From NCBI RefSeq assembly GCF_001647285.1, contig NZ_LRML01000017.1:1-64000 (forward strand): a stretch of DNA of 64,000 bases, written 5' to 3'. This DNA is from Rufibacter roseus. Its GTDB lineage: Bacteria > Bacteroidota > Bacteroidia > Cytophagales > Hymenobacteraceae. The notes beneath the pieces were generated by a model, which was given only the letters and a program-made list of their open reading frames with translations, made no database searches and had not been told where the DNA came from. Position 1 is the first letter of the stretch. Each line of letters starts with the position of its first letter. Positions 7,789 through 62,450 of the stretch are shown piece by piece. The position numbers and the translations under genes were made by a program.

Positions 7789-7825
7789 CGTTTTTGCCCT
7801 CTTTTTCTAAAACTAGCTCAAAAAC
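7789..7825. repeat. Dispersed palindromic repeat, copy 1
   Basis: Imperfect palindrome GCGTTTTTG...CTAGCTCAAAAACG with T-rich left and A-rich right arms around the loop. It overlaps the 3' end of the minus-strand MBL-fold gene: it supplies that gene's TAG stop (7813-7815) and its last few codons. See the finding on the 21-copy family. Confidence 0.6.
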
Positions 7826-8463
7826 GGATTGCTGGTTTTTTCTTCGCCAACGGTGGTAGAAGGGCCATGGCCAGGATGAACGGTTACTTCATCTGGTAAA
7901 GTGAACAACTTGGTTCGGATACTTTGAAGTAAAGTTTCATGGTCACCGCCGGGCAAATCAGTGCGGCCAATACTGCGGTGAAATAAAACGTCGCCACCAA
8001 TTACGTTCTGGCTGGGCTCGTGGTAAAAAACCACATGGCCCGGTGCATGGCCAGGGGTAAAAAGCACTTGCAGCTCAGTTTCACCAAAAGAAACGTTCTC
8101 TCCCTCTTTCAGGTATTTCTCCGGTAAAATTTCCTGGTACTGCGGAAAACCATAGGCCGCTGAGTAGGTTGGCACGGCACGTAACACCTCCAGGTCTTTT
8201 TCATGTATCTCCAGCGGAACGTTATAGGTGTCTGCAACAAATTTATTACCCAACACATGGTCTATGTGGCAGTGTGTGTTCAGCAAACGTACCACTTTCA
8301 GTTCTTGCCGCTGAATAAAATCCTTCAGCTGTTGTTGCTCCTGTTGGTTTGAACAACCGGGGTCAATCACCACGCACTCCTTTGTGTCATCAAACAGTAC
8401 ATAAGTATTTTCAGCGAAAGGATTGAACGTGAAGCTCTTTATTTGCAAACCAACAGACATCAT
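7813..8463 (-). CDS. MBL-fold metallo-hydrolase (glyoxalase II-like)
   Basis: 216 residues, metallo-beta-lactamase fold. Metal ligands are visible in THCHIDH (63-69), TPGHAPGH and the late VHPGHG motif. The short length and single domain match the YcbL/GloB-like group of small hydrolases that lack the substrate-binding C-terminal domain of true glyoxalase II, so substrate is uncertain (a thioester such as S-lactoylglutathione or a thiol adduct). No signal peptide, so cytoplasmic. The ATG at 8460 (second Met) is an alternative start. The last codons and stop come from a palindromic repeat. The gene is divergent from the FAD oxidoreductase. Confidence 0.85.
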   Translation of the reverse strand: MMSVGLQIKSFTFNPFAENTYVLFDDTKECVVIDPGCSNQQEQQQLKDFIQRQELKVVRLLNTHCHIDHVLGNKFVADTYNVPLEIHEKDLEVLRAVPTYSAAYGFPQYQEILPEKYLKEGENVSFGETELQVLFTPGHAPGHVVFYHEPSQNVIGGDVLFHRSIGRTDLPGGDHETLLQSIRTKLFTLPDEVTVHPGHGPSTTVGEEKTSNPFLS

Positions 8464-8532
8464 AGGTTCTTACAACGTTATTTTGATGGCTCTAAGTTAC
8501 GCATTTCAGCGGCACAAGCCGTACCTTGCCCT

Positions 8533-9609
8533 ATGATTTATGACTATCTGGTGGTTGGCCATGGCTTAGCCGGCGCTATTTTGACCTGTTTTTTAGAAAA
8601 CAGCGGTAAAACAGTTGTGGTGTATGATGTGCCCAAAAGCAATGCTGCCTCAAGAGTAGCGGCAGGATTGATTAATCCGGTGGCGGGTAAACGGTTTGCC
8701 AAAAGCTGGCAGATTGACGCATTTCTGCCTGTGGCCACCCAGTTTTACCAAGCCCTGGAAAAGCAGTATGGCGAGCAGCTGTTCTTCCAAAAGCCCATTC
8801 TAAAGTTATTCTCCACCCCTGAAGAACAGAACACCTGGATGGGGAAAAGCGCCGATACTTCCTGGCAGGAATATGTGGAAACCACTCATTTGCACCTGCC
8901 TCCCTCAGAGAATGTGTCACAGGAGTTGGGTGGGCTGCTGATAAAGAAAGGAGGCTATGTGGCCCTGCGTTCTTTTCTAAGTCTGCGGGAAAAAGACTTA
9001 GCCGCACGCAATGTCTTGCGCTCTCAACCGTTTGATATAAGCCAGTTGCAGATGGTACCCCATGGAGTACAGTATCAGGATGTGCAGGCCCGGAAAATAA
9101 TTTTCTGCGAAGGTGCCCAGGGGGCTGAGAACCCCTACTTCAATTGGTTGCCTTTCTCTTTGAACAAAGGTGAAATTTTAGATATAAAAGTGCCTGATTT
9201 CAAGGCAGAATATATCTATAACAAAGCAGTTTACGTTGTGCCTTTAGGCGGGGAGAAGTATAGGGTAGGGGCCACGTATAACTGGCGCGACTTAACTGAA
9301 GAAATCTCTGAGGAAAGCAAGGAAGAGCTTTCTGGAAAAATTAAGGAAATTTTAAAGAAACCATTTGATATTACAGAACAGTATGTAGGCATAAGGCCTG
9401 CTGTGCGTGACCGTAAACCGCTTATTGGGGTCCACCCCGAATTATCCCAAGTGGCCATTTTCAATGGCATGGGTTCAAAAGGGGTTTTAATGGCTCCGTT
9501 GTTGGCACAGCAACTAATTGCTGCTTTAGAAGAGGATAAACCTCTTTGGGCAGAGGCTAACATTGCCCGATATTTTTCTTTATATTTAGCATCTAAGTCA
9601 AACAGATGA
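8533..9609 (+). CDS. FAD-dependent oxidoreductase, DAO family
   Basis: 358 residues from the ATG at 8533. An upstream in-frame ATG at 8443 would overlap the divergent MBL gene and put 30 non-conserved residues before the dinucleotide fold, so 8533 is preferred. The N-terminus is the Rossmann signature YDYLVVGHGLAGAIL for FAD binding. GLINPVAGKRFAKSW and the C-terminal YVGIRPAVRDRKPLIGVHP ... FNGMGSKGVL match the D-amino-acid-oxidase/glycine-oxidase-like superfamily. It probably oxidises an amine or amino acid, but no feature fixes the substrate. Its TGA overlaps the ATG of the next gene (ATGA), so the two are translationally coupled. Confidence 0.85.
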   Translation: MIYDYLVVGHGLAGAILTCFLENSGKTVVVYDVPKSNAASRVAAGLINPVAGKRFAKSWQIDAFLPVATQFYQALEKQYGEQLFFQKPILKLFSTPEEQNTWMGKSADTSWQEYVETTHLHLPPSENVSQELGGLLIKKGGYVALRSFLSLREKDLAARNVLRSQPFDISQLQMVPHGVQYQDVQARKIIFCEGAQGAENPYFNWLPFSLNKGEILDIKVPDFKAEYIYNKAVYVVPLGGEKYRVGATYNWRDLTEEISEESKEELSGKIKEILKKPFDITEQYVGIRPAVRDRKPLIGVHPELSQVAIFNGMGSKGVLMAPLLAQQLIAALEEDKPLWAEANIARYFSLYLASKSNR

Positions 9610-12600
9610 GTCAATTCTCTACTCGCTTACTATATATGATGGGCCGTTTAGCGTTGTTGCTCCTGCTGGTAGGAGTACCCGCTGTTACAAAAGGCCAGGT
9701 AGTTGCCCCAGATGATTTCGGCCAGAACCGGATTCAGTACAAACGCTTTGTGTGGCAGTACTACAGCACCCAAAACTTTAATGTGTACTACTCGCAGGGG
9801 GGCATGGAGCATGCTCAGCATGCCGCTGAGTACGCAGAAAAGGAACTGAAGCGTGTCACGTCGCTGATTGGTTACTTCCCCTACTCTAAAATCACGCTAA
9901 TTATCTATAACTCGGTTTCTGACCTGAAGCAGAGTAACATTGGGCTGATTGATGACCCATATAAAGGGGGCAACGATGCGCTCTTTGTGAAAAGTAAAAT
10001 TGAGGTGGCCTATGAGGGGTCACAGACGGAGTTCAAGCGGCAGCTTACCTACAGCATTTCAGAACTGCTGTTGTCAGACATGATGTATGGCGGTAGCCTG
10101 AAAGAAGTGATCCAAAGCAATTACCTGTTGCGTTTGCCTGACTGGTTTGTGACTGGTGCGGCTTCTTACATAGCCGAAGGCTGGAGCGTGGAAATGGATG
10201 ATTACATGCGCGACATGATAGACAAAACCGGTGGCAGGCGCCCTGAACCTCTGTTTGCGCGGAATCAACGCCTGACAGGCCAATCTATCTGGAGCTATAT
10301 TGTAGAACGGCATGGGCCCTCTGCTATTCAAAATATTCTAAACCTTACCCGCATAACCCGTGATATTGAAATTGGTATTGCCAGTAGTTTGAACATGCCC
10401 TACAAGCGGTTCATGCGCGATTGGTTTGCCTATTATGTAACCGCCAACAGTTTTGCCGAAGGGGAGTTGCCAACTGCTGATAAAGCAAATAAAATAAAGC
10501 GCATAAATGCCCGCAGTTACTTATACTCTGAGCCTGTGCTTAGCCCCAGCGGAAAGCAACTAGCCTATGTAATGTACGACAGGGGTAGCTACAAAGTAAT
10601 TGTGCGTAATCTGGAGCGCGATCGTCAGAAAACAATCTACCGCGGCGGGTTTAAAATGCCTAACCAGAAAATGGACACCTCGGTGCCCTTGTTGGCTTGG
10701 CGTTCTGAGTCTGTGTTGGGTATAACAGATTACAAAAAAGGCAAGCTGCAGCTAAGGCAGCAAAATGCAAACAACCGGCATGTTCCGGTGGTAGATGCCA
10801 TAAGAAGGTTATTCGGAGACAATGAACGTGTCATGTCTTTGGCCGCTTACTCCCAAATCACCGGCTTTGATTATTCAGATGACGGGCAACTGATGGTGCT
10901 GAGCGGCGTGAGAGACGGACAAACAGATTTGTTTCTGTACCGAGGTTCGCGTTTGCAGCAACAGCTGACCAAAGACGTGTTTGATGAACTAAACCCATCA
11001 TTTATGCCAGGTGCCGCCAGCCGAATTCTGTTCAGCTCCAACCGTTTTCAAGACTCATTGCAGTCGGCTCAGGCAAAATTTGGGGCTGTTTCAGACAACT
11101 ACAACATTTTTGTCTATGACCCCAATACCACCCCTTCTAAGTTCTGGCAGTTAACGTATTCACCGGCCAATGAGGTGCAGCCTAGAGGTTTATCTGAAGA
11201 TGAGATAGTCTATATTGGGGAAGAAACAGGTATTCGGTCACTTTACCGCCAGAATATTAAAACCGGCACTGTAGAAAGAGTGACAGATTTTCGGCAGAAC
11301 ATCAAAGACTACGACTACAGCAGTAAAAGCGGAAATCTTGCCTTCATAGCCGATGATAGATCAAAGGAGTATGCGTATGTGTACCCTGGGTTTACCTTGG
11401 CGGCAGTAGGTGATAAAAGTTTCAAAACAAAGCGCCAGCAGGTACTGGAGGGTCATTACCAGCGGCGTTTAGAGCAGGAAAGAGCAAGAGTAGCGGCTGC
11501 ATTGGCTGCCAAAGCCGCCGCCGATTCTGTTGCTGCCTTACAGCCAAACACGGCTCCTGCCCAGTCAGATAGTACTACGGTTACTCCGGTAGCTCCGCAA
11601 AAGCCCAGAACAATTTTGTCAGTGGCCCCTACAAACGCCGAGTCTTTAGGCAGACCAAGATCTTATGATTTAAGATTTGGGGTAAACAACATTATTACCT
11701 CCATACACGCAGATCCATTGTTGGGCTTCGGGTTTGTAATGGAGGTAGGCATGGCCGACCTTTTTGAGGACTATCGAATCAGGGGAGGAGTGTTCGCCCT
11801 TACTGATTTACAAACAACGAACTTTTACGCTGAGTACTCAAACCTTAAGAACCGGTACGACTACCGTATTGGTTACCTAAAGCAGAGTGTATTGCAGGTA
11901 ACAAATGGAGGTGCTGTTAGAAGAAGGTTGCACAAGCATGAAGTAATGCCTGCGCTTAGCTATCCGTTAACAAACGCATTAAGTGTAAAGTTGCTGCCAC
12001 GGTATTCTAACATAAGGTACACATTCATTGAAAATTTCTCTGTGCCTGACGTGGTCATGGATTTTGCCGGAGTTGGTGGCGAACTTGTTTTTGATAACTC
12101 AGTGGTTACCGGCATGAACATGCGCGAAGGTACCCGTATGAAAGTGGGTGTTACCCGCATGTATGGCATAGGTGAAAAAGAAATAGGGTTCGGTAAATTC
12201 TACGCTGACCTGCGTCATTATCAGAAAATTCACAAAGAAATCATTTGGGCTAACCGTTTAAGTTACGGGCACTCATTTGGACCATCGCCTAAAAAATACC
12301 TCTTAGGCGGGGTAGATAACTGGATCAATGCCTCTGAAGACGATGTGCCTGTTTACAACAACAACATGACTCCGGCCGATTTCTTCTATCTGGAGTTTGC
12401 CACCCCTTTACGTGGATTCAACTACAATGCCCGCAACGGTACCCGTTATGTGCTCTGGAACTCAGAGTTCCGCTTGCCATTGTTTCAGTACCTGTTTGAG
12501 GGGCCTATCAACTCCGGTTTCTTTAGAAACTTCCAGGGAGTTGGATTCTTTGAGGCAGGAACGGCCTATAACACGGGTAATCCCTTCTCTGAAGACAACT

Positions 12601-12800: not shown

Positions 12801-12821
12801 TATAAACGTTTCTTCAGCATT

Positions 12822-12861
12822 ACGTTTTAAGGCTATTTTACCAAAAACAGCCTTAAAACGT
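12822..12861. repeat. Dispersed palindromic repeat, copy 2
   Basis: Perfect 13-bp outer arms (ACGTTTTAAGGCT at 12822-12834 and AGCCTTAAAACGT at 12849-12861) around ATTTTACCAAAAAC. It lies 21 bases after the TolB-propeller gene and may also act as its terminator. Confidence 0.75.
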
Positions 12862-13032
12862 GAAAGCCTCTGGTGCAGCACACTGGAGGCTTTCTGTTTG
12901 TTAGCACCCGTGATACAAGTAAAAATTTGCCTGTAACACCTGAATATCACCGGCAGCACCGCGCAAGTGCAACATGGGGTGTAAGTGACGCTTTTTCATT
13001 AAATTTACTTTTTATCAACTGACTTCGCCCAT

Positions 13033-13917: not shown

Positions 13918-13924
13918 CAAGAAG

Positions 13925-13963
13925 ATGTTTTTGTGCTGATTTTACAAAAACATGCCCAAAACG
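13925..13963. repeat. Dispersed palindromic repeat, copy 3
   Basis: TGTTTTTGTGCTGATTTT, then ACA, then a right arm ending GCCCAAAACG. It spans the first possible ATG (13952) of the following protease gene and ends 3 bases before the preferred ATG at 13967. It is more diverged than most copies. Confidence 0.55.
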
Positions 13964-13966
13964 CAC

Positions 13967-16117: not shown

Positions 16118-16171
16118 CAAGAGCCTGTTTTAGGCCTGTTTTATGAAAAACGGGTGTAAAACAGGCTCTTG
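16118..16171. repeat. Dispersed palindromic repeat, copy 4
   Basis: The longest arms in the family: 15-bp perfect outer stem CAAGAGCCTGTTTTA (16118-16132) with TAAAACAGGCTCTTG (16157-16171), around GGCCTGTTTTATGAAAAACGGGTG. It lies between the convergent M43 and M28 genes, so it could also terminate transcripts from both sides. The remaining bases 16172-16400 hold no recognisable gene. Confidence 0.8.
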
Positions 16172-17672: not shown

Positions 17673-17697
17673 AGGTAGTAAAGGCAAAGAAGCTGTT

Positions 17698-18090
17698 TTA
17701 CGCTTGATTTCTGAAAAGTAGGCGAGAAACAAAAGGCCAAAGTGCCAGGCCAAGTAAACACCCAATACAATTGCTCAGCACGTCTGACATTTCCGGAGAT
17801 CTACCTAAGGACATGGCGCCCTGCAGTAGTTCTATCACAATTCCGAAGAGTATGGAAAGCAGAAAAATTCCGGTAGCAATGCCCTTGGTTAAAACTATAC
17901 CAGGGTCACGGCGAAACCCATAAAAAGAAAGGAGAATTAAAATTCCAAACAGCAGGGCGTGCGCCAGTGAGTCAAAGGTTAGCAGGTCCAGCTTTGGGGG
18001 AGGGGGTAGCGCTTGCGCAGGCATTAATGTCCCTATCAAGATGACGAATGCCCACGCAAGTGCCGGTATGTAATGAATAAAACGATTCAA
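17698..18090 (-). CDS. VanZ-like family membrane protein
   Basis: 130 residues with four hydrophobic segments (about 8-25, 44-60, 69-92, 104-122). The pattern LIGTLMPAQALPPPP ... DSLAHALLFGILILLSFYG ... IELLQGAMSLGRSPEMSDVLSNCIGCLLG is that of VanZ-like proteins; the conserved polar residues H (SLAHAL) and E/D (ELLQ, MSDVLSN) face the membrane. The molecular function is unknown. It lies 8 bases after gcvH, and the sprA-gcvH-vanZ order recurs in Bacteroidota, suggesting a conserved locus rather than a functional pathway. Confidence 0.85.
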   Translation of the reverse strand: MNRFIHYIPALAWAFVILIGTLMPAQALPPPPKLDLLTFDSLAHALLFGILILLSFYGFRRDPGIVLTKGIATGIFLLSILFGIVIELLQGAMSLGRSPEMSDVLSNCIGCLLGLALWPFVSRLLFRNQA

Positions 18091-18548: not shown

Positions 18549-18584
18549 GTTTTAGAGCTGTTTTTCAGAAAACAGGCTAAAAAC
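18549..18584. repeat. Dispersed palindromic repeat, copy 5
   Basis: GTTTTAGAGCTGTTTT, loop, AAAACAGGCTAAAAAC. It ends 3 bases before the sprA stop codon (TAG at 18588-18590 on the minus strand). The pairing includes several G-U positions. Confidence 0.75.
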
Positions 18585-26394: not shown

Positions 26395-26440
26395 TTCCTG
26401 TTTTAGATCTGTTTCAAGAAAAACAGGCCTAAAACAGGAA
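26395..26440. repeat. Dispersed palindromic repeat, copy 6
   Basis: 12-bp perfect outer arms (TTCCTGTTTTAG 26395-26406, CTAAAACAGGAA 26429-26440) and an inner CTGTTT/AAACAG stem, with an AT/GC mismatch between. It lies between the malic enzyme gene and ruvA, both minus strand. Confidence 0.8.
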
Positions 26441-28896: not shown

Positions 28897-28934
28897 CTGT
28901 TTTGGGCTTGTTTTGCCCAAAACAGCTCTAAAAG
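28897..28934. repeat. Dispersed palindromic repeat, copy 7
   Basis: TTTTGGGCTTGTTTT, GCCC, AAAACAGCTCTAAAA (28900-28933), with an alternative perfect 11-bp pairing CTGTTTTGGGC (28897-28907) / GCCCAAAACAG (28915-28925). It lies between the transglycosylase and malic enzyme genes. Confidence 0.65.
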
Positions 28935-32521: not shown

Positions 32522-32558
32522 CGTTTTAAAGCTGATTTTTGTAAAACAGGTCAAAAAC
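32522..32558. repeat. Dispersed palindromic repeat, copy 8
   Basis: CGTTTTAAAGCTGATTTT, loop, AAAACAGGTCAAAAAC. It lies between divergent genes, upstream of both, so it cannot serve as terminator for either neighbour. Confidence 0.7.
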
Positions 32559-32576
32559 ACCTGGGGCTGAGATGTA

Positions 32577-32605
32577 TTGGGGCTGCGGTTTTTTATGTAG
32601 GTTTG
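32577..32605 (+). promoter_or_regulatory. Candidate promoter of the endonuclease/phosphatase gene
   Basis: TTG (32577-32579), 18 bases, then TAGGTTTG (32598-32605), matching the Bacteroidota pattern TTTG-N19-TAnnTTTG. Transcription would start about 15 bases before the GTG at 32628. Confidence 0.45.
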
Positions 32606-32627
32606 TTTTGCGCTATATCTGAATTCT

Positions 32628-33718
32628 GTGCTGAGGAAAATTCTTTCTTTTTTTACCGCGCTAGCTACGGCCTGGCTTCTTCTGGGGGTGCTGTGCCAGT
32701 ATGTGCCGCCCCATGTTTTCTGGCCTGCGGGTTTTGTAGCCATGTCGTTGCCCGGGGCGCTGCTCTTGAATTTGCTGCTCCTGTTTCTGTGGCTGTGGAA
32801 GAAACCCCTGTGGGCACTGTGGCCGCTGGGGCTAATTATTTTGTTCTGGGGGCAACACAACCGCTACTTCGCGCTTAGTGGCTCCAGCGAGGTGCCGCAG
32901 GAAACTACGGAGCAGCTGGTCAATGTGCTTAGTTATAATGTGCGGGTCTTTAATTCATACAAGCACCTGCACAAAGATGACCCAGACTTGCCCGAGCGAG
33001 AGATGAAGTGGGTAGCCGAGCATCCAGCAGATATTCTGTGCCTGCAGGAATTCTACCATTACAAGGGAGAGGCGCCTTATAACAGCCGCAAACGCATAGG
33101 GAAAGACCAGGGACGGCAAGTTTTTGTAGACAACTTCTGGTGAATCGGGTAGGGGCGGAGTTTGGGTTGGCTATTTTCTCCCGTTTTCCTATTGTCAACA
33201 AAGGCCGTGTAAAGTTTGATAGGCCCACTAAAAACCAAGTGATTTTTGTAGACGTGCGCATGCCCAACAAAGACACCCTGCGGGTATACAACATGCATTT
33301 AGAGTCAATGGCCATTGAAGAGAAAGAAGTAGGGGAGGCGGTGGAAAGTAAAATTGCCCTTGAAACCAAAGGCCGAAGCATTGCCCGTAGACTAAAAGGT
33401 GGCTTTGTAGCCAGAAGCCACCAGGTGAGAAAACTGCTAGAGCATATTGAAGCTAGTCCGTACCCGGTTTTGCTGTGTGGTGATTTAAATGATTTGCCAA
33501 GTTCCTATACCTACCAGACCCTGCGCAGTCAACTAGAGAATGCCTTTGAGGAAGGTGGCAACGGCTTTGGGTTTACTTATAATGGCAAGCTCCCTATTCG
33601 GATAGACAATCAATTTTACAGCCCTGAACTGGAGCTGCTAAGTTTTGAGGTGTTGGATCAAATAAAATTCTCAGACCATTTCCCGTTGCAGGCTACGTAT
33701 GTTCTGGAGCAGGACTAA
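32628..33718 (+). pseudogene. Endonuclease/exonuclease/phosphatase family protein, broken by one frameshift
   Basis: Two overlapping frames encode successive parts of one protein. The first (32628-33143, GTG start) has three membrane segments, then the EEP opening LVNVLSYNVRVFN and catalytic Glu in ADILCLQEFYHYK, ending VFVDNFW-stop. The second (open from 33140) continues VNRVGAEFGLAIFSRFPIVNKG and carries LLCGDLNDLPSSYTYQ and the terminal FSDHFPLQATYV. All catalytic residues survive across the two halves. Inserting a single C after TTC at 33135-33137 restores DNFLVNRVGAEFG in one frame, so a 1-base deletion (or assembly error) explains the break. The intact protein would be a membrane-anchored phosphodiesterase or nuclease of about 363 residues. 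Confidence 0.85.
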
Positions 33719-33740: not shown

Positions 33741-33777
33741 TGTTTTAGAACTGATTTTCAGAAAATAAACCGAAAAC
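33741..33777. repeat. Dispersed palindromic repeat, copy 9
   Basis: GTTTTAGAACTGATTTTCA, GAAAATAAACCGAAAAC. One of the more diverged copies; it lies between the EEP pseudogene and cysS on the plus strand. Confidence 0.6.
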
Positions 33778-36388: not shown

Positions 36389-36434
36389 TGTTTTAGAGCC
36401 GTTTTCTGGAAATCAGCCGGAAAACGGCTTTTTA
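36389..36434 (+). repeat. Dispersed palindromic repeat, copy 10, doubling as a terminator
   Basis: The family fold is CTGTTTTAGAGCCGTTTT, CTGG, AAATCAGCCGGAAAAC (36389-36425). A competing and stronger fold pairs AGCCGTTTTC (36397-36406) with GAAAACGGCT (36420-36429), followed by TTTTTAATTT, which is an intrinsic terminator for the cysS/QC transcript. It sits between converging genes. Confidence 0.75.
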
Positions 36435-39195: not shown

Positions 39196-39230
39196 AGCCC
39201 CGACTCTGCCAGGAGCCGGGGCTGTTTTTT
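39196..39230 (+). terminator. Intrinsic terminator of the T9SS cargo gene
   Basis: AGCCCCG (39196-39202) pairs with CGGGGCT (39217-39223), with an inner CTC/GAG stem, followed by GTTTTTT. It lies 28 bases after the stop codon. Confidence 0.85.
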
Positions 39231-39259
39231 GCCCGCTTTCTAAAAATCGGCTCCAAAAC
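39224..39259. repeat. Dispersed palindromic repeat, copy 11
   Basis: GTTTTTTGCCCGCTTTCT, AAAAATCGGCTCCAAAAC. Its left arm begins within the T-run of the preceding terminator. A diverged copy. Downstream, 39290-39325 is a low-complexity run of AATTC/AATTA-type units just before the thioesterase start. Confidence 0.55.
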
Positions 39260-40885: not shown

Positions 40886-40924
40886 AAACAGAAAGAGCCA
40901 CTCAATGAGTGGCTCTTTCTGTTT
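40886..40924. terminator. Perfect hairpin terminator after rlmN
   Basis: An 18-bp perfect inverted repeat (40886-40903 with 40907-40924) and a 3-base loop AAT, arms centred on GAAAGAGCCACTC. It is flanked by A-runs and T-runs and lies between convergent rlmN and mscL, so it can act in both directions. It abuts repeat copy 12 directly. Confidence 0.85.
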
Positions 40925-40956
40925 TCAGCCTGTTTTTCTGAAAACAGGCTGAAAAC
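40921..40956. repeat. Dispersed palindromic repeat, copy 12 (perfect member)
   Basis: 16-bp perfect arms GTTTTCAGCCTGTTTT (40921-40936) and AAAACAGGCTGAAAAC (40941-40956) with the 4-base loop TCTG. This copy best represents the family consensus. Confidence 0.85.
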
Positions 40957-43687: not shown

Positions 43688-43727
43688 CTGTTTATGAGCA
43701 GTTTTTCAAAAATCAGCCTCAAAACAG
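43688..43727. repeat. Dispersed palindromic repeat, copy 13
   Basis: CTGTTTATGAGCAGTTTTTC, AAAAATCAGCCTCAAAACAG. It is located between the divergent amidase and M48 genes, upstream of both. Close to the M48 start there is also a 12-base palindrome TTACTTAAGTAA. Confidence 0.7.
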
Positions 43728-46037: not shown

Positions 46038-46075
46038 GCATTTTTAGCCTGTTTTTCTAAAAGCAGGCCGAAAAC
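46038..46075. repeat. Dispersed palindromic repeat, copy 14
   Basis: CATTTTTAGCCTGTTTTTCT, AAAAGCAGGCCGAAAACG. It is located between the convergent M48 and DUF3999 genes. Confidence 0.75.
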
Positions 46076-50021: not shown

Positions 50022-50061
50022 GTGTTTTCGGCCTCATTTTTAGAAAATGAGCCAAAAACGC
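50022..50061. repeat. Dispersed palindromic repeat, copy 15 (covarying inner stem)
   Basis: GTTTTCGGCCTCATTTT, TAG, AAAATGAGCCAAAAAC. The inner stem is CTCATTTT/AAAATGAG rather than the usual CTGTTTT/AAAACAG: both arms changed together and pairing is kept. It lies 15 bases downstream of the thioredoxin-reductase-like gene stop. Confidence 0.75.
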
Positions 50062-51153: not shown

Positions 51154-51530
51154 TGAAGAGAAGGAATACACCAACCCAGCAAGCTATTTTGACTATCCTA
51201 AAAGATACCGGCACCGCATTAAGCCAAGATGTGCTGGTGCAGAGACTCAAAGGAGAGGCCGATAGGGTGACCATTTACCGCGTGCTCAACCGCTTCTGCG
51301 AAGATGGCATTACCCACCGCATAGTCTCCGATGAGGGCAAATCCTACTTCGCCCTCTGCCGGAATTGCCAGCAGCACCAGCATACCCATGACCATTTCCA
51401 TTTCAGGTGCCTCAGCTGCCAACGGGTAGAATGCCTGCCTGAGCAGGTGGAGGTAAACCTACCCAAAGGATATAAAGCCGAGAATGTGAACTACTGGGTA
51501 TCTGGGTACTGTGCGGGGTGCAGTGCGTGA
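51153..51530 (+). CDS. Fur-family transcriptional repressor
   Basis: 125 residues. The N-terminal winged helix includes LSQDVLVQRLKGEADRVTIYRVLNRFCEDGITHRI; the C-terminal dimer and metal-binding part has the His cluster QHQHTHDHFHFRC and Cys pairs in CRNC, CLSC and CAGC, which hold structural zinc. It is shorter than E. coli Fur. The paired CxxC motifs favour a Zur-like or Fur/PerR-like role, but the metal cannot be decided. It starts inside a perfect 17-bp dyad and is divergent from the thioredoxin-reductase-like gene. Confidence 0.9.
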   Translation: MKRRNTPTQQAILTILKDTGTALSQDVLVQRLKGEADRVTIYRVLNRFCEDGITHRIVSDEGKSYFALCRNCQQHQHTHDHFHFRCLSCQRVECLPEQVEVNLPKGYKAENVNYWVSGYCAGCSA

Positions 51531-51538
51531 GAGGAAGT

Positions 51539-51576
51539 CGTTTTAAAGCTGTTTTCAGAAAAGGAGGCGGAAAACG
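51539..51576. repeat. Dispersed palindromic repeat, copy 16
   Basis: CGTTTTAAAGCTGTTTTC, AGAAAAGGAGGCGGAAAACG. It lies 8 bases after the Fur-family gene. Confidence 0.7.
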
Positions 51577-51587
51577 GCTGCTCAAAA

Positions 51588-51621
51588 GACCTAGCAGTGT
51601 CTCCCAGACCTGCTAGTGTCT
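51588..51621. repeat. Short tandem-like repeat pair
   Basis: GACCTAGCAGTGTCT (51588-51602) and GACCTGCTAGTGTCT (51607-51621) are two near-identical 15-base units 19 bases apart; each is also AGAC...GTCT symmetric. Unknown role. The pair lies within a 350-base repeat-rich convergent spacer. Confidence 0.5.
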
Positions 51622-51693
51622 GCGCCAGTAGCCTTGGCTAACATCTTCTGCTATTATAGTAACGCCAATCAGGAAATTGGCTATCTGGCAAGT

Positions 51694-51720
51694 GCGAAGA
51701 ACGCTACGCTAACTCTTCGC
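51694..51720. repeat. Short inverted repeat before the AAC run
   Basis: GCGAAGA (51694-51700) and TCTTCGC (51714-51720) form a 7-bp stem with a 13-base loop directly before the microsatellite. It could be the remains of a small mobile element. Confidence 0.4.
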
Positions 51721-51766
<46 letters not shown>

Positions 51767-51802
51767 GTTTTTGCCCTGTTTTCGCCAAAGCAGGGCAAAA
51801 AC
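51767..51802. repeat. Dispersed palindromic repeat, copy 17
   Basis: 12-bp perfect outer arms GTTTTTGCCCTG (51767-51778) and CAGGGCAAAAAC (51791-51802) around TTTTCGCCAAAG. It begins directly at the end of the AAC microsatellite. Confidence 0.8.
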
Positions 51803-51823
51803 GCCCAAGTTAAAGCAAAAATA

Positions 51824-51857
51824 AAAAGGGCCTCACCTTTGATAGTGAGACCCTTTT
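51824..51857 (-). terminator. Terminator of superoxide dismutase gene
   Basis: 13-bp stem with one mismatch (51824-51836 with 51845-51857, built on AAAAGGG/CCCTTTT and CTCAC/GTGAG); on the minus strand it is followed by TATTTTTG. It lies 26 bases beyond the gene. Confidence 0.75.
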
Positions 51858-51883
51858 AGGCAGATTTAAAATCTTAAAACAGC

Positions 51884-52562: not shown

Positions 52563-52564
52563 AA

Positions 52565-53152: not shown

Positions 53153-53196
53153 AGCCGTTTTCGGCCTGCTTTTCATAAAACAGACCGAAAACGGCT
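53153..53196. repeat. Dispersed palindromic repeat, copy 18
   Basis: 12-bp perfect outer arms AGCCGTTTTCGG (53153-53164) and CCGAAAACGGCT (53185-53196) around CCTGCTTTTCATAAAACAGA. It lies between the secreted hypothetical gene and tadA. Confidence 0.8.
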
Positions 53197-54246: not shown

Positions 54247-54264
54247 CACCAAATTGTTTATGCT

Positions 54265-54651: not shown

Positions 54652-54716
54652 AATTGTGTTTATCCGCTGACCGCGGCAAACTTTTATAAGCGTGTTTGTG
54701 TTGAAGAAATAGGACC

Positions 54717-54753
54717 ATTTATGGCCTGTTTTTCTTAAAACAAAGCGAAAACG
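54717..54753. repeat. Dispersed palindromic repeat, copy 19
   Basis: ATTTATGGCCTGTTTTTCT, AAAACAAAGCGAAAACG. A diverged copy lying in the nuoA-nuoB gap and ending 3 bases before the nuoB ATG. Confidence 0.55.
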
Positions 54754-54755
54754 AC

Positions 54756-55310: not shown

Positions 55311-55313
55311 GGC

Positions 55314-55820: not shown

Positions 55821-55830
55821 AACAAGAGAG

Positions 55831-55868
55831 ACCCCAACGGCTTTTTTACCAGAGAAAGCCGCCGGGGT
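55831..55868 (+). other. Hairpin between nuoC and nuoD
   Basis: ACCCC-AA-CGGCTTT (55831-55844) pairs with AAAGCCG-CC-GGGGT (55855-55868): 12 of 14 positions pair, with a central AA/CC mismatch, loop TTTTACCAGA. It is not followed by a proper T-run, so it is more likely a processing or attenuation structure inside the operon than a full terminator. Confidence 0.55.
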
Positions 55869-55892
55869 TTCTGCTTACTACTAAGTGCCAAC

Positions 55893-57107: not shown

Positions 57108-57180
57108 CCGGAAGCATTAACTGAAACGATTTATCCCAAGCCTGCCGCAGGGCAGCTTTTATATACCTGCCATTGACCAG

Positions 57181-57720
57181 ATGGATCAAACAGTAGAAAA
57201 TAAAAAAGTAGAGTTTTCGGAGGGGGCCATGGCCGAAATCCGGCGCTACATTTCCCACTATCCAGAGGGACGTCAAAAGTCAGCCATTCTGCCTATCCTG
57301 CACATCGCGCAAGCGGAGTTCGGGGGCTGGGTAAGCCCAGAGGTAATGGACAAGGTGGCCGAGATACTGGATATCCAGCCAATTGAGGTGTATGAGGTAG
57401 CTACCTTCTATACCATGTTCAACCTGAAGCCGGTAGGCAAGCACGTGCTGGAAGTATGCCGCACGGGTCCTTGCATGCTGCGTGGGTCTGACCAACTGAT
57501 TGAGCACTTGGAGAACCGTCTGGGCTGCAAAGTAGGCGAGACCTCAGCTGACGGAAACTTCACTTTAAAAACGGTAGAATGCTTAGCCTCTTGCGGAACC
57601 GGCCCAATGCTGCAGGTACGTGAGAAATTCTACGAGAATCTAGACGCGGCCAGTGCTAACCAAATGCTGGAAGACCTGAAAGCCTCAACCGTAAGGAAAC
57701 CATGGGAAGAAAATTATTAA
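57181..57720 (+). CDS. nuoE: NADH-quinone oxidoreductase subunit E
   Basis: 179 residues, thioredoxin-like fold with a [2Fe-2S] cluster (N1a). Ligand Cys are in VCRTGPCMLRGS (C-x4-C) and in ECLASCGTGPML (C-x3-C). Helical N-terminus with SAILPILHIAQAEFGGWVSPEVMDKVAEIL. It works with NuoF in the NADH dehydrogenase module. A small hairpin (GCCTGCC-GCA-GGGCAGC type, 57138-57158) precedes it. Its end overlaps nuoF by 19 bases. Confidence 0.95.
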   Translation: MDQTVENKKVEFSEGAMAEIRRYISHYPEGRQKSAILPILHIAQAEFGGWVSPEVMDKVAEILDIQPIEVYEVATFYTMFNLKPVGKHVLEVCRTGPCMLRGSDQLIEHLENRLGCKVGETSADGNFTLKTVECLASCGTGPMLQVREKFYENLDAASANQMLEDLKASTVRKPWEENY

Positions 57721-59045
57721 CTGAACATATTAACGTTGAAGGCATCCAAACCTTTGACGTGTACCGCAAGCATGGCGGCTACGCCTCGGTAGAGAAAGCC
57801 CTGAAAACCATGACCCCTGAGGAAGTGGTGGAAGAGGTAAAAGCCTCTGGCTTAAGAGGCCGTGGTGGTGCTGGTTTCCCTACCGGTATGAAGTGGAGCT
57901 TTTTGGCCAAGCCAGAAGGCAAACCGCGTTACCTGGTGTGCAACGCCGATGAATCAGAGCCGGGTACTTTCAAAGACCGGTACCTAATGGAGAAATTGCC
58001 GCACCTCTTGATTGAGGGCATGATTACTTCTTCTTTCGCACTTGGTGCCCGCACTTCTTATATCTACATAAGAGGCGAGTTGTTGTACGTGCTGCGCATT
58101 CTGGAGAAAGCCATTGCTGAGGCATACGCCAACGGCTTCTTAGGTGAAAACATCTTGGGCAGCGGTTATTCTCTGGATTTACATGTTCACCCAGGTGGTG
58201 GCGCGTACATCTGCGGTGAAGAAACAGCTTTGCTAGAGTCTTTGGAAGGCAAGCGTGGTAACCCACGTAACAAGCCTCCATTCCCAGCGGTTTGGGGCCT
58301 TTACGGTTGCCCAACTGTGGTAAACAACGTGGAGTCCATTGCAACTGTGCCTTGGATTGTCACCAATGGTGCTGCGGAATACGCTAAGATTGGTGTTGGC
58401 CGGAGTACTGGTACCAAGTTGATATCTGCTGGTGGTAACATCAACAAGCCAGGTGTGTACGAAATTGAGTTAGGTGTTCCGGTTGAGGAATTCATTTACT
58501 CTGATGAGTACTGCGGTGGTATCTGGAAAGGCCGTGACATGAAGGCAGTGATTGCCGGAGGTTCTTCCGTTCCGATTCTTCCGAAAGAGTTGATTCTAAA
58601 AACTGCTGCCGGTGAAGACAGATTGATGACCTACGAGTCTTTGTCAGACGGAGGTTTTGCCACAGGTACCATGCTGGGATCCGGCGGATTCTTCGTGATG
58701 GATGACCAGACCTGTATTGTACGCCATACCTGGACTCTAGCCCGCTTCTATCACCATGAGTCTTGTGGCCAATGCAGCCCGTGCCGTGAAGGTACCGGCT
58801 GGATGGAGAAAGTACTGCACCGCATTGAGTACGGCCACGGCCAAATGCACGACATCGACTTATTGGTAAGTGTAGCCAAGCAGATAGAAGGAAACACCAT
58901 CTGTCCGTTAGGTGATGCCGCTGCCTGGCCAGTGGCTGCTGCCATCCGTCACTTCCGTGATGAGTTTGAATGGCACGTGAAGCATCCTGAAAGAGCTACT
59001 GCTCCGGGAGCCGTGTACAACAAAGCAGATTCTGTTTTAGCTTAA
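57702..59045 (+). CDS. nuoF: NADH-quinone oxidoreductase subunit F
   Basis: 447 residues. The NADH/FMN site has SGLRGRGGAGFPTGMKW and CNADESEPGTFKDR; the [4Fe-4S] N3 cluster ligands are in ESCGQCSPCREGTGW and NTICPLGDAAAWP. It oxidises NADH and feeds electrons through FMN into the cluster chain. Translationally coupled to nuoE (19-base overlap). Confidence 0.96.
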   Translation: MGRKLLTEHINVEGIQTFDVYRKHGGYASVEKALKTMTPEEVVEEVKASGLRGRGGAGFPTGMKWSFLAKPEGKPRYLVCNADESEPGTFKDRYLMEKLPHLLIEGMITSSFALGARTSYIYIRGELLYVLRILEKAIAEAYANGFLGENILGSGYSLDLHVHPGGGAYICGEETALLESLEGKRGNPRNKPPFPAVWGLYGCPTVVNNVESIATVPWIVTNGAAEYAKIGVGRSTGTKLISAGGNINKPGVYEIELGVPVEEFIYSDEYCGGIWKGRDMKAVIAGGSSVPILPKELILKTAAGEDRLMTYESLSDGGFATGTMLGSGGFFVMDDQTCIVRHTWTLARFYHHESCGQCSPCREGTGWMEKVLHRIEYGHGQMHDIDLLVSVAKQIEGNTICPLGDAAAWPVAAAIRHFRDEFEWHVKHPERATAPGAVYNKADSVLA

Positions 59046-59049
59046 TTAC

Positions 59050-59089
59050 CTGTTTTCGGCCTGTTTTCTGAAAAAGAGGCCGAAAACAG
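59050..59089. repeat. Dispersed palindromic repeat, copy 20
   Basis: 12-bp perfect outer arms CTGTTTTCGGCC (59050-59061) and GGCCGAAAACAG (59078-59089) around TGTTTTCTGAAAAAGA. It lies 4 bases after the nuoF stop, within the operon. Confidence 0.8.
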
Positions 59090-59159
59090 ACTTTTAAATA
59101 TATATGCCATTGTTGCGCGTCAATAACAATTGACCACCAACAATCAACAATAATTTGAA

Positions 59160-60164
59160 ATGGTAAAAATAACTTTTGATGGCATAGAGGTGGAGGTAGA
59201 GGAAGGAACTACCATCCTCAACGCTGCCCGTAAAATCGGCGGCGAGGTGGTGCCCCCGGCCATGTGCTACTATACTCCTTTAAAAGGAAGCGGCGGTAAA
59301 TGCCGTGCTTGCTTGGTGAAGGTGGCGGCTGGTTCTGCCAAAGACCCACGCCCGATGCCTAAACTGGTGGCAAGCTGTATTACTCCGGTACAAGATGGCA
59401 TGGTGGTGGAAAACACTACTAACCCAGATGTGCTGGCTACCCGCAAAGGCGTGGTGGAAATGCTGTTAATAAACCACCCGCTCGATTGCCCAATCTGTGA
59501 CCAGGCCGGCGAGTGTGATTTGCAGAACTTCTCTTACGAGCACGGCACCTCTGGTACCCGCTACGAAGAAGAGCGCCGCACCTTTGAGAAAATTGACATC
59601 GGGCCACTCATTCAGCTGCACATGACACGTTGTATCTTGTGCTACCGCTGCGTGTACACCGCCGACCAAATAACCGAGAAGCGCGTGCATGGTGTTTTAG
59701 GCCGTGGAGATGCTGCCGAGATTGGAACCTACATTGAGAACGTCATCGACAACGATTTCTCCGGAAACGTGATTGACGTGTGTCCAGTAGGTGCTCTGAC
59801 TGACAAAACCTTCCGCTTTAAGAACCGTGTGTGGTTTACCAAACCAATGGATGCACACCGCGACTGCCCTAAATGCTCTGGTAAAGTAGTATTGTGGATG
59901 CGCGGTAACGATGTGATGCGTGTTACTGCTCGCAAAGACAAGTATAACGAAGTGCAGGAGTTTATCTGTAACGAATGCCGCTTTGACCATAAAGACCCGA
60001 ATGATTGGACAATTGAAGGTGCCCGCAAAATTGACCGCGGCTCTGTAATTTCAGCCAACCATTACGAGTTGCCTGTACTGAATGTGCCGGTGGTGCCTAA
60101 CCTGCCAGGCTCAACCGAAGATGATTTGAAAGACACCCCTTTTAACTTAGGAAGATCTGTATAA
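59160..60164 (+). CDS. nuoG: NADH-quinone oxidoreductase subunit G, short form
   Basis: 334 residues, compared with 700-900 for classical NuoG. Cluster ligands: [2Fe-2S] C36, C48, C51, C73; the His-coordinated N5 set H106, C110, C113, C119 (HPLDCPICDQAGEC); [4Fe-4S] C158, C161, C164 and C208. A final CPKC/CNEC pair set (C236, C239, C270, C273) is the start of a molybdopterin-oxidoreductase-type domain, after which the protein stops. The large non-catalytic MGD-like domain is thus missing. Short NuoG proteins are usual in Cytophagales, and the TAATG junction with nuoH shows the end is genuine, not a frameshift. Confidence 0.93.
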   Translation: MVKITFDGIEVEVEEGTTILNAARKIGGEVVPPAMCYYTPLKGSGGKCRACLVKVAAGSAKDPRPMPKLVASCITPVQDGMVVENTTNPDVLATRKGVVEMLLINHPLDCPICDQAGECDLQNFSYEHGTSGTRYEEERRTFEKIDIGPLIQLHMTRCILCYRCVYTADQITEKRVHGVLGRGDAAEIGTYIENVIDNDFSGNVIDVCPVGALTDKTFRFKNRVWFTKPMDAHRDCPKCSGKVVLWMRGNDVMRVTARKDKYNEVQEFICNECRFDHKDPNDWTIEGARKIDRGSVISANHYELPVLNVPVVPNLPGSTEDDLKDTPFNLGRSV

Positions 60165-61225
60165 TGGAGTCAACCGAATTTTTAGTAAGAAGCGCAGTCA
60201 TCTTGGCGGTGTTTGGGATTACCCTACTCATTGCCACCTACTCCACCTATGCCGAGCGCAAAATTGCGGCCTTCATTCAAGACAGAGTGGGGCCAAACCG
60301 AGCTGGGCCGATGGGCTTGCTTCAGCCATTGGCAGATGCGGTAAAGCTTTTCTTCAAAGAAGAGTTTGTGCCAGCCAATGCCAATAAGTTCCTGTTCATT
60401 GCTGGGCCATCATTGGCTATGTTAACCGCTTGTATGGCCAGTGCGGTAATTCCTTTTGGTAATACAATTCTAATTGATGGTCAGTATATTAACGTGCAGG
60501 CCATTGAGGTGAATATTGGTATTCTGTACATCTTCGGCGTTGTGGCTTTAGGCGTGTACGGTATCATGATTGGTGGCTGGGCCTCAAATAACAAGTTCTC
60601 GTTGTTGGGTGCTATTCGGGCGGCTTCTCAGAATATCAGCTACGAGCTGGCCATGGGTATGTCTATCATTGCCCTGTTGCTGGTGTCTTCTTCGCTGTCT
60701 CTGCGCGTAATTGCGCAACAGCAGGGCGAAACATTGTTCGGTATCTCGGGCATGAACTGGAATATTTTCTATCAGCCGCTGGGCTTCCTGATTTTCATTA
60801 TCTGTGCCTTCGCAGAGACCAACCGCGTGCCTTTTGACTTACCTGAGTGCGAGACCGAGCTAATAGGCGGGTACCACACTGAGTACAGCTCTATGGGTAT
60901 GGGTCTGTATCTTTTTGCGGAGTACGTGAACATCTTTGTAGCTTCGGCTGTGATGGCAACGCTTTATTTTGGCGGCTATAACTTCCCGTTCATGTATGAT
61001 TTAGGCTTGCCACATAACCTGGTGACTTTGATTGGTACAGGCGTGCTGTTCATTAAAATTCTGATGTTCATTTTCTTCTTTATGTGGGTACGCTGGACTT
61101 TGCCGCGCTTCCGCTATGATCAGTTAATGAACCTGGGCTGGAAAGTGTTGATTCCATTGTCCATTGCCAACGTGATCATTACCGCCGCAGTTATTTTGAT
61201 AAGTGAGCAAGGATTGCCTTGGTAG
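60164..61225 (+). CDS. nuoH: NADH-quinone oxidoreductase subunit H
   Basis: 353 residues, about eight membrane helices. Signatures: YAERKIAAFIQDRVGPNRAGP in the first loop, the acidic EVNIGILYIFG and the loop ETNRVPFDLPECETELIGGYHTEYS. NuoH anchors the peripheral arm and forms part of the quinone channel. Its ATG overlaps the nuoG TAA by one base. Confidence 0.96.
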   Translation: MESTEFLVRSAVILAVFGITLLIATYSTYAERKIAAFIQDRVGPNRAGPMGLLQPLADAVKLFFKEEFVPANANKFLFIAGPSLAMLTACMASAVIPFGNTILIDGQYINVQAIEVNIGILYIFGVVALGVYGIMIGGWASNNKFSLLGAIRAASQNISYELAMGMSIIALLLVSSSLSLRVIAQQQGETLFGISGMNWNIFYQPLGFLIFIICAFAETNRVPFDLPECETELIGGYHTEYSSMGMGLYLFAEYVNIFVASAVMATLYFGGYNFPFMYDLGLPHNLVTLIGTGVLFIKILMFIFFFMWVRWTLPRFRYDQLMNLGWKVLIPLSIANVIITAAVILISEQGLPW

Positions 61226-61291
61226 AACTACTGACGTGAATCTTCTTTCTGAACAGAGGAATATTTACCGATTTTTAAAGACTAGAATGAT

Positions 61292-61798
61292 ATGCAATCA
61301 TTAAGTAATAGAGCAAAGAAACTAGAGAAAAAGCCGATGAATTTCTCGGAGAGAATGTATCTCCCGGCAATTTTTCAAGGTTTGAGTATCACCATGCGTC
61401 ACTTCTTCAAGAAGAAAGCGACCATAAAATACCCAGAGGAAACCAGACCGATGAGTGCCGTTTGGCGTGGTCTGCACGTGCTGAAGCGTGATGAGAAGGG
61501 GAGAGAGCGTTGCACCGCCTGCGGACTTTGCGCCGTGGCTTGTCCTGCTGAAGCCATTACTATGGTAGCAGGTGAGCGCAAGCGGGGCGAGGAACACCTG
61601 TACCGTGAGGAGAAATACGCGGTGAGCTACGAGATAAACATGCTGCGCTGCATCTTTTGTGGTCTGTGCGAGGAAGCTTGCCCGAAAGCAGCTATCTTCC
61701 TGCAGAACGACAAAGTGGCTCCGGCCCGCTACGAGCGCGATGAGTTCATCTACGGCAAAGACCGTTTGGTGGAGCCCATGCCTATTCAAAACCAGTAA
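61292..61798 (+). CDS. nuoI: NADH-quinone oxidoreductase subunit I
   Basis: 168 residues with two [4Fe-4S] ferredoxin motifs: CTACGLCAVACPAEAI and CIFCGLCEEACPKAAI (clusters N6a and N6b), preceded by an amphipathic N-terminal helix region. It carries electrons between NuoG and NuoB. Located 66 bases after nuoH. Confidence 0.96.
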   Translation: MQSLSNRAKKLEKKPMNFSERMYLPAIFQGLSITMRHFFKKKATIKYPEETRPMSAVWRGLHVLKRDEKGRERCTACGLCAVACPAEAITMVAGERKRGEEHLYREEKYAVSYEINMLRCIFCGLCEEACPKAAIFLQNDKVAPARYERDEFIYGKDRLVEPMPIQNQ

Positions 61799-61831
61799 TT
61801 CCGCCGCAACGCGTTTATCATCCCTATAACT

Positions 61832-62347
61832 ATGACGGGTAATATCTTTTACTTCCTCGCTTTCTTGACCCTTTTCGCTGCCATTGGGGTAGTGGCTTCT
61901 AAAAACCCTGTGTACAGCGTGCTGTTCATGATTTTGACGTTCTTCGCCTTAACTGGGCAGTACATTCTGTTGAATGCTCAATTTGTGGCCGCGGTAAACT
62001 TTATCGTGTACATGGGTGCCATCATGGTGTTGTTCCTGTTCGTGATCATGTTCCTGAACATGCGCGAAGACACTGAGCAGCACAAGCCGCTCATGAGCAA
62101 GATTGCCGCCGCTATTTCAGGGGGTATTTTGCTAGTGATTATGGTGGCCGCCTTGAAAGACGTAGATGCCGGTGGGTATAACGCAGAGAATTTCAACTCG
62201 CAGATCGGATTGGTAGAGCACCTGGGGCAAGTACTGTTTAGAGATTACCTGTTGCCGTTTGAACTGGCGTCAGTGTTGTTTTTAGCGGCTATGGCCGGTG
62301 CCGTCATGCTAGGGAAACGCGAACCAGGCGAGCAAAATAGATTTTAA
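61832..62347 (+). CDS. nuoJ: NADH-quinone oxidoreductase subunit J
   Basis: 171 residues with five membrane helices. The conserved third helix region FIVYMGAIMVLFLFVIMFLNM, including the pi-bulge glycine/tyrosine, is NuoJ. It is involved in coupling electron transfer to proton pumping. Confidence 0.94.
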   Translation: MTGNIFYFLAFLTLFAAIGVVASKNPVYSVLFMILTFFALTGQYILLNAQFVAAVNFIVYMGAIMVLFLFVIMFLNMREDTEQHKPLMSKIAAAISGGILLVIMVAALKDVDAGGYNAENFNSQIGLVEHLGQVLFRDYLLPFELASVLFLAAMAGAVMLGKREPGEQNRF

Positions 62348-62414
62348 GGCTGGCGTGAAGCCGGTGAAAGGACAGCTGTTCATTGGTTGTCCTTTTACTT
62401 TGACTGGCAGTTTT

Positions 62415-62450
62415 GTTTTGGAGCTGATTTTCAGAAAACAGGCCCAAAAC
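62415..62450. repeat. Dispersed palindromic repeat, copy 21
   Basis: GTTTTGGAGCTGATTTT, CAG, AAAACAGGCCCAAAAC. It is located in the 237-base nuoJ-nuoK gap. Confidence 0.75.

Follow-up and report, generated by a model that had tools for sequence, protein, structure and literature searches.

The HIP1 element of cyanobacteria is a very abundant palindrome of 8 bp that is kept across species and is common in coding DNA; the Rufibacter repeats described here share its abundance and its retention across species, but they are 36-bp dyads and intergenic. REPs are likewise intergenic palindromes, of 20-40 bp and high copy number, located chiefly in convergent and co-directional spacers as far as the available portion of PMC3733652 describes them, and the available text of PMC1525189 names gyrase and IHF as proteins that bind REPs in E. 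coli. The Rufibacter dyads are REP/BIME-like in these same respects, being high-copy intergenic palindromes of 20-40 bp with that convergent and co-directional preference. They differ from RAYT-associated REP/BIME elements, which carry GTAG or CGTC tags, in being untagged and without a tie to RAYT genes, and also in keeping their position across 15 congeners (in the tested stretches) under a constraint specific to their T/A tracts. A further counterpart, in the accessible part of PMC5217627, is the uptake signal of H. influenzae, with ~1300 motif copies that are often dyad-paired at gene ends. The signal pairs at terminators of Haemophilus and Actinobacillus, in the same accessible text, form the terminator stems, whereas each Rufibacter copy is a whole dyad and the predicted terminators are separate. 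A description of this family was not found in the open-licence literature on palindromes of Rufibacter, Hymenobacteraceae or Bacteroidetes, on REP/RAYT in Bacteroidetes, on whether REPs keep their positions, or on BIME and gyrase.

The window, a 64-kb stretch of Rufibacter roseus DNA analysed at its full length, had been reported in a preliminary description to contain 21 dispersed palindromic copies. Our scan with a consensus of 30 scored positions, with loops of 2-7 permitted, recovered all 21 at scores of 23-30 together with two extra ones, raising the total to 23 (Table 1), whereas a single match scoring at least 23 arose across ten dinucleotide-shuffled versions of the window. The repeat is built as a dyad of 36 bp, GTTTTnRGCCTGTTTT-n4-AAAACAGGCYnAAAAC (16-4-16). 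Of the hairpin lengths originally given (36-46 nt, 54 once), the 36 bp stands as the constant unit, and the longer forms proved to be outer extensions. The perfect 16-bp member at 40921-40956 was borne out, with a loop of 4 bases, as was the placement between divergent genes of two copies that begin at 32523 and 43690 (listed as 32522 and 43688). By contrast, the proposed core string GGCCTGTTTT...AAAACAGGCC had zero exact matches in the window, because the T/A tracts are near-invariant only in parts. The first 7.7 kb indeed hold no copy, this stretch consisting mostly of a compact cluster of genes (M16 peptidase, PorV and peptidase C25, with spacers of 6 and 29 bp) and one copy-free spacer of 332 bp. 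Some copies resemble a 36-nt CRISPR repeat of GTTTT...AAAAC form, a likeness that was dropped because the copies are dispersed.

Table 1. Dyad copies and adjoining hairpins in the 64-kb window, with their presence in the orthologous spacers of congeners where compared.
Feature	Positions	Basis
Copy, loop 3, co-directional spacer	7790..7824	score 25/30
Extra copy, within the first part of called gene 8443-9609 (real start perhaps further in)	8577..8612	score 24/30
Copy, co-directional spacer	12824..12859	score 27/30
Distinct hairpin adjoining the 12824 copy	12862..12894	inverted repeat I16
Copy, co-directional spacer	13927..13962	score 26/30
Copy, convergent spacer	16127..16162	score 27/30
Extra copy, absent from the earlier list	17695..17730	score 23/30
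Copy, co-directional spacer	18549..18584	score 28/30
Copy, co-directional spacer	26400..26435	score 27/30
Copy, co-directional spacer	28899..28934	score 26/30
Copy, divergent spacer; present in 12/15 congeners (score at least 21)	32523..32558	scan, orthologous spacers
Copy; at least one in the orthologous spacer of 15/15 congeners (many spacers longer there)	33742..33777	scan, orthologous spacers
Copy, convergent; 14/15 congeners	36390..36425	scan, orthologous spacers
Copy; 7/7 congeners with gene pair found	39224..39259	scan, orthologous spacers
Distinct terminator-like hairpin abutting the 40921 copy; congeners similar (by eye)	40886..40924	inverted repeat I2
Perfect copy, convergent; 13/15 congeners	40921..40956	inverted-repeat list, scan, orthologous spacers
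Copy, divergent; 1/1 congener with gene pair found	43690..43725	scan, orthologous spacers
Copy, convergent; 3/3 congeners	46040..46075	scan, orthologous spacers
Copy; 6/7 congeners	50024..50059	scan, orthologous spacers
Copy; spacer 51423-51883 with at least one copy in 7/7 congeners	51540..51575	scan, orthologous spacers
Second copy of spacer 51423-51883	51767..51802	scan, orthologous spacers
Copy; 15/15 congeners; outer-arm changes paired	53157..53192	scan, orthologous spacers, alignment
Copy immediately before start codon; 15/15 congeners	54717..54752	scan, orthologous spacers, alignment
Copy; 15/15 congeners	59052..59087	scan, orthologous spacers
Copy; 15/15 congeners	62415..62450	scan, orthologous spacers

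The four arm tracts form the set TTT-N9-TTT-N4-AAA-N9-AAA, symmetric about the dyad, and this exact pattern occurs 1292 times in the window's genome (G000; control 19) and 531-1710 times in all 16 genomes of the genus. It yielded 0-39 matches in 134 genomes from five other genera of the family (controls 0-38), and 0-15 in 237 genomes of other genera in the wider order, where the top value of 15 had a control of 8; four Rufibacter genomes gave 186-1134 in that comparison, and a wider spread through the order is not supported. Two genomes of one sister genus stood at about twice the control (38 vs 18 and 39 vs 17), which we regard as noise because other genomes there show no such surplus (26 vs 36 and 21 vs 32). 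The search of the genome and its relatives revealed a large excess over control, contrary to the absence of excess over shuffled sequence that would have spoken against the family, and a chance origin is rejected by the window shuffles, this whole-genome control and the counts in four species.

Comparison of orthologous spacers in 15 congeners revealed that position is retained as well: where the window spacer has a copy, so do 138 of 145 orthologous spacers, against 4 of 152 where it has none and 2 of 297 shuffled spacers, with the proviso that some relatives' spacers reach 1.9 kb and may contain an unlisted gene. At a threshold of 23 the values were 112/145, 3/152 and 0/297, respectively. 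Selection, suspected from the outset, is supported. Among five species pairs of 88-92% identity, 124 of 141 copies aligned to partner sequence and 17 fell in gaps, presence here meaning partner sequence over at least 40% of the copy rather than a scored copy, and some copies being counted doubly through partly overlapping stretches (A/B) of a genome. At this between-species distance no clear gain or loss of copies emerged: one of the 17 was flagged as a clean absence, but in a poorly aligned stretch.

Genes were called with our own codon model in G000 and in four species, and the spacer counts omit copies beyond the outermost called genes (6/149 in G000, 28/603 in the four species). Only 31 of the 575 copies placed in the four species (with a threshold of 22 for G012, here and in the covariation tests) lay inside called genes, in agreement with the near-absence from coding DNA noted previously. 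Convergent, co-directional and divergent spacers all hold copies, convergent ones being richest: among spacers of 80-180 bp, a copy was present in 60/74, 108/214 and 8/50, respectively. Divergent copies were depleted near starts, 19 of 75 lying no more than 60 bp away vs 32.5 expected, and in co-directional spacers of at least 100 bp (283 copies) the mean relative position was 0.34, with 38% of copies no more than 30 bp from the stop codon.

Spacing and letters are constrained alike. The loop is 4 in 22 of the 23 window copies and in 557 of 586 copies from four species, and GTTT..AAAC at spacing 9-4-9 gave 82 matches in 464 kb, compared with 0-6 at each of 12 other spacings. In orthologous copy pairs (n=57, with the same double counting), positions 2-4, 14-15, 22-23 and 33-34 changed at 0.00-0.07, an apparent conservation that is raised at all scored positions because both copies had to pass the score; the middle changed at 0.29 and the flanks at 0.45-0.50, the latter including misalignment. 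Such tract-specific constraint favours present function over decay. The tract edges vary, positions 5, 21 and 32 having changed in 26-30% of pairs, which counts against a protein-site reading. The consensus itself is species-specific (e.g., a CATTT/AAATG form in G012), and the copy at 54717 has an off-consensus right arm, AAGCG, in 16/16 aligned sequences.

We consider it somewhat probable that selection maintains the repeat as a genus-specific boundary element, set between transcription units and bound by a putative factor. The dyads would be double-stranded DNA sites for an abundant sequence-specific protein or complex of the genus, placed between adjacent transcription units: beside terminators in convergent spacers, mainly past the stop codon in co-directional ones, and in roomy spacers distant from starts where genes diverge. 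Judged from gene arrangement in the sequence, the copies would mark transcription-unit borders, and their recurrence at the same gene borders across species, in the tested stretches, suggests boundary markers of the putative protein rather than leftover mobile DNA. The bound protein may form a two-way boundary that stops read-through, or that keeps the supercoiling driven by transcription confined between neighbours, and may also fold the nucleoid; because the four T/A tracts are symmetric about the dyad, a site would be expected to act alike on the genes on either side. This boundary function would be the benefit of the element, possibly exerted as a roadblock, through topoisomerase recruitment or through architecture. 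HU/IHF-type genes (PF00216) show no expansion in the genus, and an expanded binder of this type was rejected. A bolder version, in which ~500-1700 dyads per genome would act as genome-wide insulators at inter-unit sites fixed across the genus and read by a co-evolving genus-specific protein, is plausible but falls short of probable. The spacer preference of REPs, in the available text of PMC3733652, is identical in kind and counts against the boundary reading.

It is rather unlikely, in our estimation, that the copies are domesticated REP- or MITE-like repeats which spread in an ancestor, lost their mobiliser and were kept as useful or harmless sequences at gene ends. Their genus-restricted, high-copy distribution, REP-like spacer preference, species-specific consensus and the 17 of 141 copies in partner-genome gaps would suit such an origin, as would the RAYT genes of most genus genomes, a few of them with a copy close by, and G012, where 50 of up to 147 copies have one common left arm; these near-identical copies look like recent copying or homogenisation and count against the boundary reading. 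However, among loop-4 copies sampled in G000, G006 and G007 no two were alike, the only flagged clean absence sits in poor alignment, and the tract-specific constraint points to current function. The kinship to REP/BIME elements or a tiny MITE that was first suggested is not supported. At the ends of 149 copies, GTAG occurred 5 times (11 in the control 51-60 nt away), GTGG 3 (9) and CGTC 4 (3). A MITE with target-site duplication is weakened, since in four species the flanking k-mers matched about as often as in shuffles and gave no clear duplication, with a weak 4-mer excess at offset 3 (5 vs 1.3 in G006, 9 vs 3.4 in G012). As regards a parent insertion sequence with the same terminal repeats, solo arms in the samples were close to the shuffled level, at 5, 8 and 5 in G000, G006 and G007 (9, 4 and 12 in shuffles), of which 0 (464 kb), 3 and 1, respectively, were intergenic. 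RAYT genes are present in 15/16 genus genomes, but the anticipated RAYT flanked by the repeat did not emerge: a copy lies within 60 bp upstream of 4/29 RAYT loci vs 81/947 genes, within 60 bp downstream of 1/29 vs 294/947, and within 250 bp up- and downstream of 13 and 15 of 29 vs 281 and 428 of 947, three duplicate and three truncated or fragment loci being omitted. Eight RAYT loci viewed by eye showed other short palindromes, few of which an arm-12 search lists. A REP/RAYT link was rejected, since RAYTs are no closer to copies than ordinary genes and congener G007 gave no RAYT match, yet has the repeats.

Less probable still is an action as RNA-level 3' hairpins, which would either serve as intrinsic terminators or shield mRNA ends from exonucleases. 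The skew toward stop codons, the terminator-like hairpins that frequently adjoin copies and the covariation of some pairs would agree with it, but of 483 gene ends that carry a copy, 7 have a predicted terminator overlapping it, and separate predicted terminators are present both with and without copies, confirming that these are not ordinary terminators. The arms also start with T and finish with A, the opposite of a U-tract terminator, and the divergent copy at 32523 is widely kept among congeners (Table 1). Along the direction of transcription, 302 co-directional copies showed 246 G-T vs 304 A-C mismatches and hence no G-U excess; the A-C surplus on the sense strand (p 0.015) counts against the protein-site reading. 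In none of four species did inner pairs 10-16 covary (|z| <=1.8 across 28 tests), although a threshold on the two-arm sum can mask positive covariation, and Rfam gave zero matches in the window at the gathering score. The lack of G-U excess and of inner-arm covariation, along with the single-bp spacing, speaks for a protein site on double-stranded DNA rather than for an RNA hairpin. Outer pairs covaried within all four species (z 3.3-4.9 for 6/31, 3.7-4.8 for -2/39), with z higher still at some nearly invariant pairs; 38 cells were changed on both sides in window copies vs 24.7 in shuffles, orthologous pairs had 67 double-changed pairs vs 48.3 expected, and the orthologues of the 53157 copy retain symmetry via paired changes. 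Outer-arm covariation is not required by a plain protein site and counts against that reading. It would, with the paired changes, suit a cruciform or quasipalindrome effect in which template-switch mutation rather than selection keeps the symmetry, but such an effect fails to predict the invariant T/A letters, the spared inner arms and the fixed spacers, and is very improbable.

Intergenic palindromes in bacteria are commonly taken as mobile DNA or mRNA hairpins. Because the Rufibacter copies keep orthologous positions, are constrained at the level of single letters and are strictly spaced, they can be treated as functional sites. Whether bacteria use dedicated DNA boundaries between neighbouring transcription units is now a testable question in an environmental genus, and the sites may aid the prediction of transcription-unit borders.

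All 21 palindromic copies listed for the window in the preliminary description were recovered by our consensus scan, with scores of 23-30 out of 30, together with two further copies; ten shuffles of the window gave one match at such scores in total. In 464 kb of the same genome (the window plus twenty 20-kb stretches), 149 copies scored at least 23 and none did in one shuffled set, an excess over shuffled sequence at a density of about one per 3.1 kb, close to the one per 3 kb first estimated. The whole genome held 1292 matches to TTT-N9-TTT-N4-AAA-N9-AAA versus 19 with the reversed control. The GTTT..AAAC anchors were found 82 times at the 9-4-9 spacing and 0-6 times at each of 12 other spacings in the 464 kb. 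Loops of 2 to 7 were permitted, yet 557 of the 586 copies from four species had one of precisely 4. A logo of 134 loop-4 copies revealed the dyad CY-GTTTT-n-RRSCTG-TTTT-YNNR-AAAA-CAGSYY-n-AAAAC-RG, which spans roughly -1 to 38 between almost flat flanks; positions 6 and 31 were low in information, and positions 3 and 15 (both T) and 23 (A) were the same in 134/134 copies. The CTGTTTT starts (-1, 10) and the AAAACAG starts (21, 32) kept an 11-bp pitch throughout.

Features of the window by coordinate (copies by start position)
Position	Feature	Observation
1-80	Sequence similar to a 5S rRNA gene 3' end, then a terminator	No Rfam match at gathering score
First 7.7 kb	Copy-free, as first described	Mostly taken up by the closely packed M16-PorV-C25 cluster; also contains one spacer of 332 bp
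8577	Copy	Additional to the 21
17695	Copy	Additional to the 21
32523	Copy, divergent spacer	Present in 12/15 congeners
32559-32700	Conserved hairpin-like AACCTACG...CGTAGGTT block, between copy 32523 and the gene on the plus strand	Shared by most of the aligned congeners; possible RNA leader
40886-40924	Terminator-like hairpin beside mscL	Similar hairpin in congeners, seemingly with compensating changes
53157	Copy	
54717	Copy	Off-consensus letters common to all congeners aligned

The repeat is a genus-specific element of Rufibacter (Hymenobacteraceae). The covariance model built on the window copies, a search that the preliminary description had proposed, matched 16/16 genomes of the genus, 0/3 from other genera of the family, and 0/10 from other families. 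The tract pattern occurred 531-1710 times per genome in 16/16 genomes of the genus (controls 6-21) and 0-39 times in 134 Hymenobacteraceae genomes belonging to five other genera (controls 0-38), while a stricter pattern searched through the order gave 186-1134 matches in four of the genus versus 0-15 in 237 other-genus genomes. Among 80 named loci bearing a REP-associated Y1 transposase (RAYT; 3-9 kb each), only six had matches of at least 23, four of them from Rufibacter and two others with one marginal match apiece; none was found at the RAYT loci of Pontibacter (four), Hymenobacter (two), or Adhaeribacter (one).

Copies were also retained at orthologous positions, as assessed for the window genes from 30561 onward, about half of one window, in two 20-kb stretches from each of 15 congeners. 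Orthologues of copy-bearing spacers carried a copy in 138/145 cases, against 4/152 for copy-free spacers (4/107 for spacers of at least 60 bp) and 2/297 after shuffling; at the stricter threshold of 23, the values were 112/145, 3/152, and 0/297. The shared off-consensus letters of copy 54717 point to one ancestral site. In five species pairs (88-92% identity), 124/141 copies aligned to partner sequence and 17 fell in gaps, and the sole flagged clean absence lay in a poorly aligned stretch. Across 57 orthologous copy pairs from five species pairs, some counted twice, substitution was 0.00-0.07 at dyad positions 2-4, 14-15, 22-23, and 33-34, versus 0.26-0.30 at tract edges 5, 21, and 32. The middle changed at a rate of 0.29, the loop at 0.31, and the flanks at 0.45-0.50. 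Because the score threshold inflates conservation equally at every scored position, this contrast within the dyad is evidence of constraint, and the kept positions and tract sites bear out an early suspicion of selection.

The consensus varied from species to species. All loop-4 copies (42-bp strings) were distinct in the window's genome (134), G006 (132), and G007 (144), as were 154/162 in G012, three further genomes of the genus. The G012 inner site is CATTT/AAATG, with one left arm common to 50 of up to 147 copies; an altered, partly near-clonal version predominated in its sample (L229-L248). These copies nonetheless sit in orthologous spacers, and the turnover is compatible with either homogenisation of the copies or their co-evolution with a binder that is itself changing.

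With gene calls made within the analysis (four species, 1.66 Mb), 544 of 603 copies were intergenic, 28 lay beyond the outermost calls, and 31 were inside called genes, in keeping with the rarity in coding DNA described earlier. Spacers of 80-180 bp held a copy in 60/74 convergent, 108/214 co-directional, and 8/50 divergent cases, as did 26/45 divergent spacers of at least 400 bp. The 283 copies in co-directional spacers of at least 100 bp tended to lie on the side of the upstream gene's stop codon (mean relative position 0.34).

In an RNA hairpin, G-T mismatches should outnumber A-C ones; in 302 co-directional copies read in the sense of transcription they did not (246 versus 304, the opposite direction, p 0.015), which counts toward DNA. 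Inner pairs 10-16 showed no covariation in any of the four species. The main fact left unexplained by reading the repeat as a DNA site is covariation of the outer arms (pairs 6/31 and -2/39, four of four species), with changes on both arm sides among window copies and orthologous pairs, including paired changes in orthologues of copy 53157. This covariation could stem from template switching, or from several binding proteins that differ in outer specificity. Nor are the copies ordinary terminators, as predicted terminators overlapped a copy at 7/483 copy-bearing gene ends. Non-overlapping ones within the end region accompanied 57/261 co-directional ends with a copy versus 65/289 without, and 92/222 versus 27/106 convergent ends; the T tract started 0-9 bp ahead of the copy in 36/171 terminator-copy distances.

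The REP/BIME kinship first proposed was not sustained, as REP tags were not enriched at copies and RAYT distances were at background: a copy lay within 60 bp upstream of 4/29 RAYT loci versus 81/947 ordinary genes, and downstream of 1/29 versus 294/947. G007 had no RAYT match, yet carried repeats (752 tract matches). A tiny MITE fared no better, with target-site duplications not seen, bar a weak excess that two species showed at a single setting, and solo arms numbering 5, 8, and 5 in three samples versus 9, 4, and 12 in shuffles. The window's genome encodes five full-length RAYT-like genes, whose motifs resemble those described for TnpA subclass 2.6 of Bacteroidetes (PMC6006769). By eye, eight RAYT loci from several genomes (L002-L006, L053, L061, L072) had other short palindromes beside the gene, for example of GGAAGTTTATAAACTTCC or GGAGTCTTCAGACTCC types, so the genus may hold several independent RAYT-palindrome families. 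The RAYT at L079 in Pontibacter beigongshangensis is 81% identical to the query family, well above the next matches (66% and below), and may reflect horizontal transfer.

By these tests, the element is outside the REP family. The repeat is a real DNA element between genes, apparently selected; it most likely sits at transcription-unit boundaries and, by analogy, may work like a BIME-type boundary.
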